The notes below the pieces were generated by a model. That model ran no database searches. It was not told the DNA's origin and was given only the letters and a program-made list of their open reading frames with translations. This document shows, one piece after another, positions 22,638 through 30,366 of a stretch of DNA of 64,000 nt. A program made the translations under genes and the position numbers. The stretch covers positions 1,000,622 through 1,064,621 of the forward strand of contig NC_015315.1 of NCBI RefSeq assembly GCF_000193375.1, written 5' to 3'. The stretch is from Thermoproteus uzoniensis 768-20. GTDB lineage: Archaea; Thermoproteota; Thermoprotei; Thermoproteales; Thermoproteaceae. The stretch's first letter is position 1, and every line of letters starts with the position of its first letter.

Positions 22638-23660
<1,023 letters not shown>

Positions 23661-23665
23661 GGCCC

Positions 23666-24664
23666 CTACAAACCGCCCGATTTAAATTGATACAGCCAGC
23701 ACGCGGCCAGATGGCGCCTCCCAGTCCAAGGCTTAAGCTCGAACGCAGGCGGCTCCCTATCGTCGCAGAGCCCCTTGAGCGCCTTGTCGTTGGCGAAGTA
23801 GGGACAGCGCGGGTGGAAGCGACATCCCTTGGGCGGGTCGATGAGGCTCGGCACCTCTCCTGGTATATAGGACAGCTGTTTGTCGGTCCTCAGAGTGGGC
23901 ATGCTGGACATAAGGCCTTGAGTGTAGGGGTGGGCCGGGGCGGCGTACATATCCTCTGCGCTACCTATCTCGGCGAGCTTCCCGGCGTACATCACGGCGA
24001 CGGAGTCGGCGAGCTCGCTGGCTAGCGCCAGGTCGTGGGTGATGAATATATACGTGAGCTTCAGCCTCGCCTTCAACTCCTTCAGCAGGTTCATTATGTT
24101 GGCTTGGGTCATGACGTCGAGAGCCGACGTTGGTTCGTCCAAGATCAGGAGCTTGGGCCTCGCCATTATGGCCATAGCTATGACCACCCTCTGCTTCATG
24201 CCGCCCGACAGCTGGTGCGGGTATCTGTTGACGACGTCCCTCGGAAGGCCCACCGACTCGAGGGAGTCTTGGGCCAGCTTGAGGGCCTCCGACTTGGGCA
24301 CGCCTTGTAGCACCAGCGGCTCCACCATCTGCTCGCCGACCGTGATGACAGGGTTGAGGGCGTTCATGGAGGCTTGCGGCACCATGGCCACTTTCCGCCA
24401 GCGTATCTCTCTCCTGAAGCGGTCCTCCGGCATGTGCAGGATCTCCTCGCCCTCTAGATAGATCTCGCCGTCGACTAACGAGACGTTCCTCTCCCAGACC
24501 CTAGTTATGGCCTTGGCCAGAGTCGACTTGCCGCTCCCGGTCTCGCCCACCACCGCAAGGGTCTCGCCCTCCTCCAGCTCGAACGAGACGCCGTCGAGGG
24601 CCTTCAGTATGCCCTTGGTCGTCTGGTAGTAGAGCCTTAAGTTTCTGACCTCCAGGAGCGGCAT
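23666..24664 (-). CDS. oligopeptide/dipeptide-type ABC importer ATPase (OppD/DppD)
   Basis: The first ATP-binding subunit, 332 residues. Walker A is VVGETGSGKSTLAKA, signature LSGGMKQRVVIAMA, Walker B LLILDEPTSALD. The C-terminal extension has GCRFHPRCPYFANDKALKGLC with the four-Cys pattern of the family. The ATG at 24664 begins immediately after the stop of the permease gene (24667). Together with the OppF-like protein it forms the ATPase heterodimer driving import at the cytoplasmic face. Confidence 0.93.
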   Translation of the reverse strand: MPLLEVRNLRLYYQTTKGILKALDGVSFELEEGETLAVVGETGSGKSTLAKAITRVWERNVSLVDGEIYLEGEEILHMPEDRFRREIRWRKVAMVPQASMNALNPVITVGEQMVEPLVLQGVPKSEALKLAQDSLESVGLPRDVVNRYPHQLSGGMKQRVVIAMAIMARPKLLILDEPTSALDVMTQANIMNLLKELKARLKLTYIFITHDLALASELADSVAVMYAGKLAEIGSAEDMYAAPAHPYTQGLMSSMPTLRTDKQLSYIPGEVPSLIDPPKGCRFHPRCPYFANDKALKGLCDDREPPAFELKPWTGRRHLAACWLYQFKSGGL

Positions 24665-24666
24665 GG

Positions 24667-26070
24667 CTACGCGTGTCTAAGCCTCGGGTTGACCACGGGC
24701 TCGAGGCCCATGGCCACGAATATAAACGTCACGGCCACGAAGGTGATGAGGAGCCCGGGCGGCACGACCCACCACCAGTAGCCCGACGTCAACGCGCCGA
24801 ACTCGTTGGCGTAGGCCAGTATGTTGCCCCAAGTCGGCAACTCGGCCCCGGCGAGGTTGAAGAAGTTTATGGCCGACAGCGTCAGTATGCCGCCGGGGAC
24901 GTTGACGACGAACAGATATAGGGTGTAGGGCATCACCATGGGCAGTATGTGGTTCCTCAATATCCAGCCCTTGCCCGCGCCCGCGGCGAGAGCCGACTCG
25001 ATGAACTGCGAATTCTTTATCTGCATGACCATGGCGCGGATCACGCGGGCCGAACCTCCCCAAGAGACCGCGGCGAGGAAGACTATGGCGTCCCATATAG
25101 ACCACTGGAACATCACCGAGAAGATTATCAACAGAGGAAAGGCCGGGAACAATATGAAGAAGTCGGTCACTCTGGTAAGCACCTCGTCGGCAAAACCGCC
25201 GTAGAACGCTGAGACGACGCCTATCAGTATGGCCAAGACCACGACTATGGCGGCCGTGAGGAGGCCCACCGCCAGATCTATGGGGAAGCCGGCCAGCAAG
25301 CCGAGCCATAGGTCGTGGCCCAAGAAATCGGTGCCCATGAGCCCGTACGCGTCGCCCTCCAATACGACGCCTATATCCTTCCTGCTTATGTTGGCGGACG
25401 TGCCGAAGGCGTATATCGTTACCGTGAACTTATAGGGACCGTTCAGAGGTACGAACTTGCCGTCTTTCACCGTGTAGAACAGATAGGGTATCGCCGAGGA
25501 GCCTTGGGGAACCGCGTTGGCCACGCCGAAGTTGTTCTGGAAGAAGGCGTCGACTTGCGATATTATCTGCGAGCTCAGCCCAAATGCGTTGAATCTGCTC
25601 GATATTTGGTCGGGACCCAGCTGGACGGTCTTCCCATCGGGCCTCGTCACAGTGAGGTAGACGACCCAAGTGCCGTTGTACACGCTCGGCGTGTTGACCA
25701 ACAAGAATAGATCCTTCCACGGCGTCTTGTAGACGTTGTCTACCGAGAACGATATGACGGCGTAGCGCACGCCCCCGCTAGATCCGCTAGTGAAGTTGTA
25801 GTTTGTAATCGTCAGCTGTGGGGCGTACTCATTACCGGTGAACGCGTTTATCCAAACCGGCGGGGCGTACTTCGGATTGGCTTGCCAATACGACGGAGTG
25901 TTCCACAGTTGCCCGAAGTTAGGCGGCAGAGCCACCAGCGAATATATTGAGAAGGCCACCATTATTGCGAAGAACGCCACGGCGATTTTGCCGGTGGTGG
26001 TGGCTATGAAGCCTCTCCATATCTCGCCGGGCGTCATCCCGAGTATTCTGAACTCTCTGCGGGCCGCCAT
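24667..26070 (-). CDS. ABC importer permease (OppC/DppC type)
   Basis: An inner permease subunit of 467 residues, starting at ATG 26070; upstream in-frame codons fall within the OppB gene. After the first membrane segment (KIAVAFFAIMVAFSIYSLVA, about residue 30) comes an unusually long extracytoplasmic region of about 190 residues before the next hydrophobic segment. Normal OppC has a much shorter loop here. The C-terminal half has the standard binding-protein-dependent permease core with the EAA-like loop IESALAAGAGKGWILRNHILP. The gene starts 2 bp after the OppB stop. The large loop may dock the equally unusual binding protein. Confidence 0.9.
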   Translation of the reverse strand: MAARREFRILGMTPGEIWRGFIATTTGKIAVAFFAIMVAFSIYSLVALPPNFGQLWNTPSYWQANPKYAPPVWINAFTGNEYAPQLTITNYNFTSGSSGGVRYAVISFSVDNVYKTPWKDLFLLVNTPSVYNGTWVVYLTVTRPDGKTVQLGPDQISSRFNAFGLSSQIISQVDAFFQNNFGVANAVPQGSSAIPYLFYTVKDGKFVPLNGPYKFTVTIYAFGTSANISRKDIGVVLEGDAYGLMGTDFLGHDLWLGLLAGFPIDLAVGLLTAAIVVVLAILIGVVSAFYGGFADEVLTRVTDFFILFPAFPLLIIFSVMFQWSIWDAIVFLAAVSWGGSARVIRAMVMQIKNSQFIESALAAGAGKGWILRNHILPMVMPYTLYLFVVNVPGGILTLSAINFFNLAGAELPTWGNILAYANEFGALTSGYWWWVVPPGLLITFVAVTFIFVAMGLEPVVNPRLRHA

Positions 26071-26072
26071 GG

Positions 26073-27179
26073 CTACTCGCTCCTGATCCTTGGATCCAGT
26101 ACTACGTACAGCACCTCGAGGACGAGGACTATGCCTATATATAGCAACGTGGAGGCGTAGGTCAGCGCAACTATGACCGGCATGTCGGGCGTAGGCGCGA
26201 AGATAGCTATGTTGTAGACGTATCCCAGGCCCCACCAGCGGAACACCGCCTCTGTTATGAGGAAGCCGCCGAATATTATGAACGGCAGAGTCAACAATAT
26301 GCTGGTCAATATGGCGGGCGCCGCCGGTCTGAGTATATACCTGCTGGTTATCCTGCCGTCGGGCAACCCCTTAATCTTGGCGAACGTGACGAAGTCCTCC
26401 TGGGCGGTGTTGAGGGTCACGGTCCTGGCGAAGTAGGCCCAGCCGCCTATGTTCACTATGAGGACCGTGGCAAGCGGCAGGACGAAGTGCCATAGGAGAT
26501 CGGCCAGCGCCTTGGGATTTGTCAAGACCGAGACCGGCGACGTGAACCACTCGGCATAGTACTGAGGGCTCAGTATGCCGCCTGCGGGGAAGTATATAGG
26601 CGATTTTATGGTGCTTAGATAGAAACTGAACACCAAGAGCAGAATGACGCCGACCCACCACTGGGGGAGCCCGTTGGATATAGCGCCGTAGTACATGACT
26701 GCGCGGTCGGTCCTACTGCCGTACTTCAGCGCAGACCTCAAGCCTATCTGTATCCCTATAAATGCACTAAGGAGGATGCCGAAGGTGTCCAGGAGGATGG
26801 TGCCGGGGAGGGCTGAGGCGATTATGTCGGAGACTCTGCCAGACGACACACCGTACTCGCTCGGGTATTCCGAATAGCCCCAGTTAAACGTCAACATATT
26901 GTATATTATGTAGAACACGCGTATGTAGACCGGCTTGTTCAGACCATACGCGTTGTACAGCTGTTGCACTATGGAGTTGTAGACTTGCTGGGCTTGTTGA
27001 GAGCTGACATGTCCCGATTTAAGGAGTTGCGAGACCAAAGCCCTCGCCTCTAGATTTATCTGGGTCTCTAACAATTTAGAGGCAGGACCTGCTAATGCAT
27101 AAGATACTATGAAAAGGAGTACAAACATCAATATAACTAGGTTAACTGCCCTGATAGCCAGAGTCCTCAATAGACCCAT
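26073..27179 (-). CDS. ABC importer permease (OppB/DppB type)
   Basis: A 368-residue permease with six or so membrane segments. It begins with a typical OppB N-terminus (LRTLAIRAVNLVILMFVLLFIVSY), and an extracytoplasmic segment of about 90 residues rich in Gln and Asn follows. The EAA loop is FVTFAKIKGLPDGRITSRYILRP, the contact site for an ATPase subunit. The C-terminal DPRIRSE is the conserved OppB end. It is separated from the binding-protein gene by 40 bp of A/T-rich DNA that could hold a processing site or weak promoter. Confidence 0.92.
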   Translation of the reverse strand: MGLLRTLAIRAVNLVILMFVLLFIVSYALAGPASKLLETQINLEARALVSQLLKSGHVSSQQAQQVYNSIVQQLYNAYGLNKPVYIRVFYIIYNMLTFNWGYSEYPSEYGVSSGRVSDIIASALPGTILLDTFGILLSAFIGIQIGLRSALKYGSRTDRAVMYYGAISNGLPQWWVGVILLLVFSFYLSTIKSPIYFPAGGILSPQYYAEWFTSPVSVLTNPKALADLLWHFVLPLATVLIVNIGGWAYFARTVTLNTAQEDFVTFAKIKGLPDGRITSRYILRPAAPAILTSILLTLPFIIFGGFLITEAVFRWWGLGYVYNIAIFAPTPDMPVIVALTYASTLLYIGIVLVLEVLYVVLDPRIRSE

Positions 27180-27219: not shown

Positions 27220-29847
27220 TCAGCGCCTTCTAATAGCCAGGACCGCGACCGCGATTATGAGTATGACCACTACCGCGACGAGAGCCCAGACCCAACCCGG
27301 CGTCGTAGCCACCGTCGTGGTGGCCACCGACGACGTGGTGACCGTGGCGACAGAGGACGTGGTGACCGTTACGGCGGTCACGACGGCCAGCGTGGCCGAG
27401 TACGTGGTGGGCACCGTCACCTTGTCCGTATAGATCATCATGTTAAGCGTGTAGACGCCCGGCACGGTCAAAGCGCTTGCCGGCAGAGTGAGCGTCAGCT
27501 GGCCGGGAGTCGAGGACGTCACGGTGCCGCTGTAGACTACCTGTCCCTGCGGGTTGGTGACGTACACATACGCCCTAGGCAATCCAACACCCTGCACAGT
27601 CACAGTTATTGTGTTAGATTGCCCAGCAACCAGCGTCGTGGGCGTCACGCTGACGACGGAGGCCAGCGGGTTGGACGGGACTGACGGCAGTGTGCCGTAC
27701 AGCTCACTGTACCAGTAGCTGTAGCTGAACGGGTATCCGCTCCACAGCACGAGCACCGCCGACTGCGGCGTCACCGAGACGAGGGACTTGAGTATGTAGG
27801 GGCCGTTGCTTATGAAGAGGTGGCCGTACTGGTTGTAGAAGCTGAGGGCGTCCTGGTAGTCCTGTACGGCCTCCGTACTGTTCAACACACAGCCCAAGCC
27901 GGGCACGCAAGCCCAAGAGCCGTTATCCCAGATGAATCCGGTCTGGCTCCACTGCTGTAGGTATCCAGCCAATATCTTCGCGCTGTCGCTGGCAGTGAGG
28001 TCGGCAGTAGGTATCTTCATCGACTGGGCCTCGCTACTTGTCAGCGCCAGCTTGCCGTCCTTCATGGCCTGGAACATAGCCGCGTAGAGCTCCCACGGGA
28101 TAGACCAGATATAGCCGGGCGCGTAGTACGAGCCCACTATGTTGGGGTCTGGGAACCAGTAGTTCGAGTACACCACCACGGTCCCGTTGGGGAAGAACTG
28201 CAACCCTACTACAGTGCTGGCGCTGGGCTGCAACGCGCCTTGGAGATCGCTGATCTGGGCAGCGTTGGCGCCCAGGTCGGGCGCTCCCTGCGCTAGGTCG
28301 AGATACCAGTACCAGTACATGAGGACGTCGGCCATGGTTATGGGCTGGCCGTCCTGCCAGTTGGTGCCGAGCCAAGTGCCGTTGTAGTAATACCTAATAA
28401 CGGCCCTGGCCATCTTGCCGGGGCCTACCGTGACCCACTTGCCCAAAGTCGCGTTCCAGACTACCGCGTTGGGCGGCACGGGGTATATGGCCGAGCTGTT
28501 GGGGCTAAGCTGGACTGACCAAGCGCCTCTGAAGGGCATCGGCTCGCCCGAGAACGGGTCGTAGTAGGCAAACGGGTCGAACAGCCAGCCCTGCACCACG
28601 TCGGCCGTATAGGCGTCTACGCCCACTATCCACTGTATCGGGTTCCACGGATACTGCTTGACGTGGAGCATGCCGACTGTGAGGGTGGTCTTGCCAGGCA
28701 CGTAGGCGAACTTCACGCCATAGGGCGTCTCGAGGCCCAACACAGACGGCATGAAGTTCCGTAAGTTGCTGGCTACCGGGTAGGCGGCGGCTCTAGCCAC
28801 TTGCCACACCCTCACCGCCTCGGCGAAACAGTCCGAAAGCGCTATCTTGGACAATTGCTTGAACTGGTCGAGGCTGGTGAAGTTGCCTGTAGAGACCCAC
28901 TGGGTTATTTTGTCTATAGTAGCGTTGCTGTACTGCCAGTAGCCGCTGGTGCCCCAGCCCGGCATGTTGCCCGACCACGAGGCGCAGAAGCTGGCGCCGG
29001 CGCCGGTGTCCCACGGCATAGGAGTTATGGACCAAGCCTCAGTGTATATCTGCCACTCCATGGAGGCGGGGTTGGAGCTGTAGACCGTGCTCAGCGCATC
29101 AGTCAACGTGCCGTATATGGGCTTTATGGTGAAGCCGAGCGACTGGAGAGCCTCGGAGAACATCAAGCCCATCTGGTAGCGGTAGGGGTCGTCGTTCCTT
29201 ATGAAGAATATTATGGTGACGGGTTGCGGCGTGGTGGAGTTGGGCGGGATATAGTACCACTTGCCGTTAATCCAGAGTATTCTGCCGTGCCAGACGGGGT
29301 CGGTCTGGTTTATCTGTCTGAAGAGGGCCCATATAGAGGCGTTGACGTAGGTCGGGTCGTAGTGGATATTGTACTGCGACACGAACGGGACTATCAGTAG
29401 GTAGCTGTTGAGCGCAAACGGGCCGGGCCAAGCCACCATGGGCGTGGCCAAGCCGTGGAACACTTGCTGCACTATGGCGCTTCTGTGGACTAGGTAGTTC
29501 ATCAAGAAGCGGAACTGCCTATAGGCGAAGGGGTTGAACGTCGTGTTGCTGGGGTAGGGGTTGAACAGAAGGTCGTACGCAGATATCATGCCGGGGCTCA
29601 CGAACGTGACGTTGGGGTTCTGCTGTAACTGCGCCAGCACGTTTGTGGGCAGAGCCCACGGGTTGAGATACATGTCTATCTTCCCACTCTGGAAATAGAG
29701 CGCTACCTGGTCCTTAGGCACCTCCGTCACTGTTATTGTCTGGGGCATCGACGAGCTGGACGTCGTCTGGGCAGTCGAGAGATACGCCGACAGCACTAGT
29801 ACGGCGGCCGCGAGGGCCGCCAGTACTATCACTTTCCGGGACGCCAT
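27220..29847 (-). CDS. membrane-anchored solute-binding protein, family 5, apparently circularly permuted
   Basis: The extracytoplasmic receptor of the Opp/Dpp-type importer, 875 residues. A signal segment (KVIVLAALAAAVLVLSAYLS) is followed by a region matching the C-terminal half of bacterial DppA: SGKIDMYLNP, then YRQFRFLMNYLVHRSAIVQQ with the AIDR-like helix and EALQSLGFTIKPI. At about residue 386, TTLTVGMLHVKQYPWNP starts a region matching the N-terminal half of DppA, including WQDGQPITMADVLMYWYW (about 495-512) and SNGPYILKSL. An Ig-like domain (about 745-830), a Thr/Ser/Val-rich stalk and a C-terminal membrane anchor ending in RRR complete it. The order of halves is thus reversed relative to the family. 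Confidence 0.9.
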   Translation of the reverse strand: MASRKVIVLAALAAAVLVLSAYLSTAQTTSSSSMPQTITVTEVPKDQVALYFQSGKIDMYLNPWALPTNVLAQLQQNPNVTFVSPGMISAYDLLFNPYPSNTTFNPFAYRQFRFLMNYLVHRSAIVQQVFHGLATPMVAWPGPFALNSYLLIVPFVSQYNIHYDPTYVNASIWALFRQINQTDPVWHGRILWINGKWYYIPPNSTTPQPVTIIFFIRNDDPYRYQMGLMFSEALQSLGFTIKPIYGTLTDALSTVYSSNPASMEWQIYTEAWSITPMPWDTGAGASFCASWSGNMPGWGTSGYWQYSNATIDKITQWVSTGNFTSLDQFKQLSKIALSDCFAEAVRVWQVARAAAYPVASNLRNFMPSVLGLETPYGVKFAYVPGKTTLTVGMLHVKQYPWNPIQWIVGVDAYTADVVQGWLFDPFAYYDPFSGEPMPFRGAWSVQLSPNSSAIYPVPPNAVVWNATLGKWVTVGPGKMARAVIRYYYNGTWLGTNWQDGQPITMADVLMYWYWYLDLAQGAPDLGANAAQISDLQGALQPSASTVVGLQFFPNGTVVVYSNYWFPDPNIVGSYYAPGYIWSIPWELYAAMFQAMKDGKLALTSSEAQSMKIPTADLTASDSAKILAGYLQQWSQTGFIWDNGSWACVPGLGCVLNSTEAVQDYQDALSFYNQYGHLFISNGPYILKSLVSVTPQSAVLVLWSGYPFSYSYWYSELYGTLPSVPSNPLASVVSVTPTTLVAGQSNTITVTVQGVGLPRAYVYVTNPQGQVVYSGTVTSSTPGQLTLTLPASALTVPGVYTLNMMIYTDKVTVPTTYSATLAVVTAVTVTTSSVATVTTSSVATTTVATTPGWVWALVAVVVILIIAVAVLAIRRR

Positions 29848-29865: not shown

Positions 29866-30366
29866 CTAGTATTTAACTATTGCTCTTTCAAGTTTCGCCG
29901 CCCCTTTAGTTTTATAGGTTATTTGATATAAATACCCCACAACCAAGAATGCGAACATAAGTATAAAGAGTATAACCATTATTACTGTTAATATTTTATT
30001 TATAATTGTTGTTTTTACACTTTTTATTGTTATAAAGATATTTTGAGAAGAATCGTTTATGTATATATATTTGACGAAGGAGAAGTTATAGACGGACTGC
30101 CCCGGCGGCGCCGCCAACGTGGCGTTGTTTATGAAAACCACGCCGTAGACTTCCTCCCCCACCGAGACCGGCACGTAAGCCGTCCCGCCGCCCGTGTTGT
30201 TTATGAAGAGCAGGACCAAGCCGCCGTCGGGCGTCACGTTGAGGGGTCTTACGGGCCCCGAGTAGTACGTCGTGACTGTGTAGGGGTTGAGGAGGAGGTA
30301 GAGGGCCAGCAGAGCCGCGCCGACGCCGAAGACGTAGGCCAGCCTCGTCAACAGCTCGGGCGACAC
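29866..30366 (-). CDS. bitopic membrane protein of unknown function
   Basis: A 166-residue protein with an N-terminal membrane segment (YVFGVGAALLALYLLL, about residues 11-26), an Asn/Thr-rich extracytoplasmic domain predicted as beta-sandwich, and a second membrane segment (LTVIMVILFILMFAFLVVGYLY, about 125-146). A basic tail follows. The 3' third is markedly A/T-rich in codon use (Ile and Lys codons ATA, ATT, AAA). The GTG at 30366 is 22 bp from a TATA-like CCGTTAAAAGC (30383-30393). It ends 18 bp before the solute-binding-protein gene on the same strand, so it may be an accessory of the importer. Confidence 0.65.
   Translation of the reverse strand: MSPELLTRLAYVFGVGAALLALYLLLNPYTVTTYYSGPVRPLNVTPDGGLVLLFINNTGGGTAYVPVSVGEEVYGVVFINNATLAAPPGQSVYNFSFVKYIYINDSSQNIFITIKSVKTTIINKILTVIMVILFILMFAFLVVGYLYQITYKTKGAAKLERAIVKY
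29868..29880 (-). promoter_or_regulatory. TATA element of the Opp/Dpp-type operon
   Basis: On the minus strand AGTTAAATACTAG is centred about 27 bp from the binding-protein ATG at 29847. It lies inside the last codons of the upstream gene. Confidence 0.5.

Follow-up and report, generated by a model that had tools for sequence, protein, structure and literature searches.

A Predicted Circular Permutation in the Family 5 Binding Protein of an Opp/Dpp-Type Importer From Thermoproteus uzoniensis

The Receptor Gene and Its Operon

The window, that is the whole 64,000-nucleotide stretch of the Thermoproteus uzoniensis 768-20 genome that was analyzed (contig NC_015315.1, positions 1,000,622 to 1,064,621), carries on its minus strand an SBP_bac_5 receptor ORF of 875 aa (27220..29847), predicted to be circularly permuted, upstream of an intact oppBCDF set. 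The gene order is SBP-oppB-oppC-oppD-oppF, with all genes on the same strand. The OppB-type permease (26073..27179, 368 aa) and the OppC-type permease (24667..26070, likely start by inspection MAARREF at 26070) matched PF00528 with E-values of 2e-24 and 2e-23, respectively. They are followed by an OppD-type ATPase (23666..24664; Walker A GETGSGKST, LSGGMKQR) and an OppF-type ATPase (22638..23660; Walker A GESGSGKTT, LSGGQRQR), both ending in oligopeptide-type CRFHPRCP tails. A 166-aa ORF immediately upstream of the receptor (29866-30366, minus) has two membrane helices around an extracytoplasmic stretch.

By inspection, residues 1–27 of the receptor form a signal peptide (29767..29847), and a hydrophobic leader is found at the start of nearly all window-family receptors. 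The binding-protein part, about 680 residues between the signal peptide and an Ig-like domain, consists of two halves delimited by PF00496, the PDB entry 7fi3 and a canonical profile: half A (residues 37–385; 28693..29739) is the counterpart of the second half in canonical SBP_bac_5/OppA proteins, and half B (residues 386–715; 27703..28692), for which the PF00496 match is weak, that of their first half. Half B carries WQDGQP and NGPYILK and finishes near YW. An Ig-like beta-sandwich at the new C-terminus (residues 728–824; 27376..27666; weak Pfam beta-sandwich matches) precedes a Ser/Thr-rich stalk, a transmembrane helix and an RRR tail (residues 825–875; 27223..27375; from the sequence). The Ig-like domain, stalk and C-terminal anchor that an earlier, sequence-only reading had claimed after the receptor halves are thus all present in the sequence. 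An AlphaFold model of the receptor from a three-sequence alignment had a pLDDT of 36, with the Ig-like domain as its sole confident part (pLDDT about 55–85). The genome has two further SBP_bac_5 genes, whose order is canonical wherever they match the profile, and the type of C-terminal tail found on the window receptor is also seen in the canonical binding proteins of the genome. In several window-family receptors (C-termini of L048–L053), the Ser/Thr stalk ahead of the transmembrane helix is replaced by a coiled-coil-like one.

Reversed Order of the Two Halves

The sequence-only reading had proposed that the halves of the receptor stand in reversed order relative to canonical family 5 proteins such as DppA, and this was borne out by Pfam, phmmer, canonical HMMs and profile–profile comparison. 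The segments it had named (SGKID and HRSAIV, then TTLTVG and SNGPYILKSL) were found in that order along the ORF. Searched separately against family profiles, the two halves matched SBP_bac_5 in swapped order. The stretch proposed as the canonical second half (residues about 40–385) matched PF00496 positions 150–355 on receptor residues 37–281 (E 1e-13), and the stretch proposed as the first half (residues about 386–720) matched PF00496 26–126 when the C half was scanned alone (E 0.007, weak by itself). The first half is recognized weakly in the window protein itself; the native receptor scored 51.4 bits against PF00496, above the curated cut-off of 32.4. When the halves were swapped back in silico (residues 386–715, then 28–385), PF00496 26–355 aligned as a single stretch with 59.8 bits. 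Sequences rotated at several cut points scored 57–60 bits, a poor discrimination between cuts, and colinear alignment to 7fi3 and a profile–profile test were therefore used instead.

Against PDB chains, phmmer gave one strong match, 7fi3_A (E 7e-19 overall), presumably the Thermococcus OppA. Receptor residues 102–322 corresponded to chain residues 400–618 and residues 455–601 to 69–212, in reversed order, and the back-swapped receptor gave one continuous alignment (query 70–625 to chain 69–618). The choice of DppA as comparator was right as to family, but the closest solved relative is 7fi3 rather than DppA. Profile–profile comparison of 31 window-family sequences with 30 canonical sequences gave, in native order, matches at 237–523 (E 1e-21), then 74–194 (E 1e-4), then 211–232; after rotation, 211–523 was unbroken across the native ends, with an E-value of 8e-24 versus 1e-21 for the native order. 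With a canonical-order 7fi3 segment as the query against 300 genomes of the phylum, the match split at query position ~241–265, and in every one of the 30 genomes with the two halves listed as distinct matches, their order was swapped. NCBIfam models that matched both halves in related groups did so in the same swapped order. Neither a conventional profile order nor two complete binding proteins in the ORF was found; each half is present once. Both SBP_bac_5 halves are present in an unconventional N-to-C order, as expected of a permuted family variant. With a probability of roughly 0.94, these alignments point to the receptor domain being a natural circular permutant of a family 5 (cluster C) binding protein of an Opp/Dpp-type importer.

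The second-placed half is far more diverged than the first-placed one, as might be the case if two half-proteins of different origin had been fused by domain shuffling, and a comparable possibility was raised by the authors who described TpMglB-2 (PMC4990184). Such a fusion is nonetheless highly improbable here: both halves picked the same solved protein, 7fi3; the two halves of G198 match 7fi3 equally (111.5 and 111.2 bits); and both halves score strongly in other permuted groups. Permutation of a single ancestor is the reading followed below.

Position of the Cut

The junction had been placed near residue 385. That position does join the old C-terminus to the old N-terminus, but the new termini lie elsewhere, at about residues 30–36 and 715. 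In the 31-member alignment, the mature N-terminus shows the motif GPxxDxIxF...GxID, whose canonical place is after the GPY...NPxYW strand, and the receptor body finishes with GPYxL......(Y)P. or YW ahead of the Ig-like domain. Throughout the window family, the predicted cut falls in the same loop, which follows the GPY...(N)PxYW strand. In DppA numbering it falls shortly before residue 208 (residue 49 of the permuted relative L099 equals 1dpe 208). By the OppA domain limits, this is presumably a loop inside lobe I; a cut at the lobe hinge had been considered and was dropped, since those limits place the cut inside lobe I.

Conservation and Distribution

Comparison with three congeners gave a dN/dS of 0.10–0.15 overall and 0.07–0.16 in both halves, which indicates that the receptor gene is intact and under purifying selection. 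Intact full-length colinear homologues occur in single-contig genomes, and the full-length relatives inspected in many other genomes, a check that the sequence-only reading had suggested, show the same swap. An assembly or gene-model artefact would have to have produced the identical full-length order in many independent assemblies, single-contig genomes included, and would sit poorly with the low dN/dS; it has a negligible probability and is already refuted by the independent genomes with the same order. In low-completeness genomes, the orthologues L022, L023, L024 and G048:C24 are interrupted by stop codons or frameshifts, which may reflect either sequencing error or gene decay.

A window-family match was found in 63 of the 81 genomes of the class (E 1e-10) and, in a sample from the phylum, in 244/398 genomes (E 1e-5), the order having been checked for part of the matches in both cases. 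Archaeal amoA was detected in 7 of the 14 genomes tested, and the family is therefore present in ammonia-oxidizing archaea. The swap is widespread and ancient and extends beyond the window gene alone; it probably arose before the window family diversified within the Thermoproteota.

Related Permuted Groups and Number of Events

A canonical-profile scan of ORFs from other genomes revealed related groups. Group G2 consists of archaeal proteins of 600–780 aa in which both halves are strong, many with the same Ig-like and anchor tail; in L099, for example, residues 34–348 matched profile positions 208–510 (149 bits) and residues 362–559 matched 27–223 (99 bits). Next to this permuted receptor, OppB and OppC are fused in one 680-aa ORF (L099:4662-6701). 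Two G2 receptors, L126:1405-3672 and L129:1069-3207, terminate in dockerin-like repeats (DxNxDGxxDxxD type) in place of a membrane anchor; L126 is permuted, and for L129 only the first-half match was seen, late in the chain. Group G3 (L092–L095), also archaeal, is permuted with the same loop cut; its members are anchored in the membrane at the N-terminus, lack a C-terminal tail and carry the canonical DPD motif. Group CP2, from alphaproteobacteria and haloarchaea (L112:1426-3024; L145:3432-5081; L146:3429-5039; L147:3438-5123; L148:3339-5084), is cut at canonical-profile position ~360, as opposed to ~221 for the window receptor, and has full-length colinear relatives on plasmids. The CP2 genes lie in plasmid-borne Opp-type operons and are annotated merely as ABC transporter substrate-binding protein. 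Against canonical NCBIfam models and PDB chains, L099 and L112 gave split or partial stretches only, the listed chains being in canonical order. Two Thermoproteales genomes hold canonical-order members of the window subfamily (L199:3378-5624; L200:18-1874), the first with an N-terminal membrane anchor.

The different cut makes CP2 a separate event. G3 was placed among canonical proteins in trees, and constraining the permuted groups that share this loop cut to one clade was rejected by AU tests (p 0.009 for the receptor, 0.0001 for OppB); these tests on receptor and permease support a separate origin of G3. Together, the cut positions and trees indicate that the SBP_bac_5 family has been permuted independently at least twice beyond the window swap. 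The window family and G2 grouped together in a receptor tree built without 7fi3 and L199, and in the OppB tree (support 98/93; 95/91 with L199 included). A fully supported branch united the canonical-order 7fi3 and L199/L200 with the window family, and AU p-values for nested versus sister placement of L199/L200 were 0.13 (OppB) and 0.16 (receptor); branches in the trees are long, and the receptor trees were quick searches. Since the window subfamily includes canonical-order members (7fi3; L199/L200), its order has switched at least once. The alternatives are separate permutations of the window family and of G2, or a return to canonical order in some lineages, with L199/L200 as a candidate reversal. 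A history of at least three independent cluster C permutations, two at the same loop, with at least one return (L199/L200, possibly also the 7fi3 type), is offered tentatively, the odds being somewhat against it. If true, such repeated switching would mark this loop as a hot spot for natural permutation, exploited whenever the tether changes protein end.

The Long OppC Insert

The unusually long extracytoplasmic insert of about 190 residues attributed to OppC is real: the loop from TM1 to GTDxxGxD (25333..25926, minus) measures 195 aa, compared with 15–37 in the canonical systems measured. AlphaFold predicted a beta-rich structure (pTM 0.70); a fold search against the PDB gave no convincing match (best TM about 0.4, E 5e-4), and a Pfam scan of the insert found no domain.

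A long OppC N-terminal region was present in 22/22 window-family systems and 10/11 G2 systems and in none of 20 canonical ones, and the inserts of related systems are homologous (E 1e-19). This pattern could suggest that permutation and insert co-evolved as a single docking device, with the insert owing its existence to the permuted receptor. That explanation is unlikely, for the insert also occurs in the canonical-order L199 system (E 8e-23) and is missing from the permuted L116 system (OppC L153) and from two other permuted groups, G3 (0/4, L093 being long by start choice only) and CP2 (0/4), a distribution that agrees with permease ancestry. The presence of the insert in L199 and its absence from L116 separate it from the swap. 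The comparison of systems thus favors an insert that tracks the permease lineage and is not governed by the swap; the idea that the swap gave rise to the insert was abandoned once the canonical-order L199 had been found to bear it. A docking role for the insert may be conjectured.

Proposed Mechanism and Ligand

Anchored in the membrane, the protein would serve an Opp/Dpp-type ABC importer as its substrate receptor. In the proposed permutation, the old N- and C-termini would have been fused near residue 385 and the chain opened anew in the loop behind the GPY...YW strand. The former second half thereby came to stand after the signal peptide, and the former first half runs into the Ig-like domain, stalk and transmembrane anchor. 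The receptor probably adopts the usual two-lobed trap, closes on its ligand and, like DppA, passes it on to the permease pair OppBC; docking of DppA onto its transporter has been described (PMC12136057). The main effect of the swap would be to shift the tether point from an old terminus to a lobe loop. A link between permutation and tethering was suggested by the authors of TpMglB-2 (PMC4990184), but canonical relatives are likewise tethered, which leaves the link unestablished in this family. The peptide-binding Asp motif (W..D..DP type, for the amino end of the ligand) is absent, the window family having YTE(A/G)W, and a peptide ligand should therefore not be assumed.

A rearranged receptor on a standard ABC translocator offers a test of what the transport cycle requires in terms of surfaces and chain connections. 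Ammonia-oxidizing archaea are among the carriers, and it is chiefly the first-placed half that profile annotation detects there. Permutations that recur at the same loop provide rare comparative data on how permutations originate and persist, and permuted receptors are ready scaffolds for biosensor design.

Comparison With Known Systems

The closest solved sequence, 7fi3_A (an archaeal dipeptide/oligopeptide transport binding protein of 732 aa), matches both halves and has the YTEGW motif in common with the window receptor, but its halves are in canonical order. DppA, OppA and NikA (cluster C/PF00496) belong to the same domain family by profile and likewise adjoin OppB/C/D/F-type genes; the window receptor differs from them in its swapped halves, its C-terminal Ig-like domain and anchor, and the lack of the peptide-binding Asp motif. 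The CP2 proteins are also permuted SBP_bac_5 proteins with Opp-type permeases, but they differ from the window receptor in their cut (~360 versus ~221) and in lacking the OppC insert, and represent an independent event.

No permuted chain was among the matches listed in PDB sequence searches, and no report of permuted family 5/cluster C binding proteins was found in the open-access literature, subscription journals lying mostly outside the search. Within that open-access scope, natural permutation is known in cluster B, with no precedent found for cluster C. The cluster B case is TpMglB-2 (Tp0684) of Treponema pallidum, the naturally permuted receptor of an ABC importer, classed as 'Type Ic / Cluster Bc', that binds glucose, closes on it and is membrane-tethered (PMC4990184). 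The window receptor does not fall into cluster B (galactose/ribose type), PF00496 being the sole binding-protein family among its Pfam matches. It resembles TpMglB-2 in being a circularly permuted binding protein with a membrane tether, but TpMglB-2 is bacterial, has the cluster B sugar-binding fold and a different cut, and shares no family-level homology with it.
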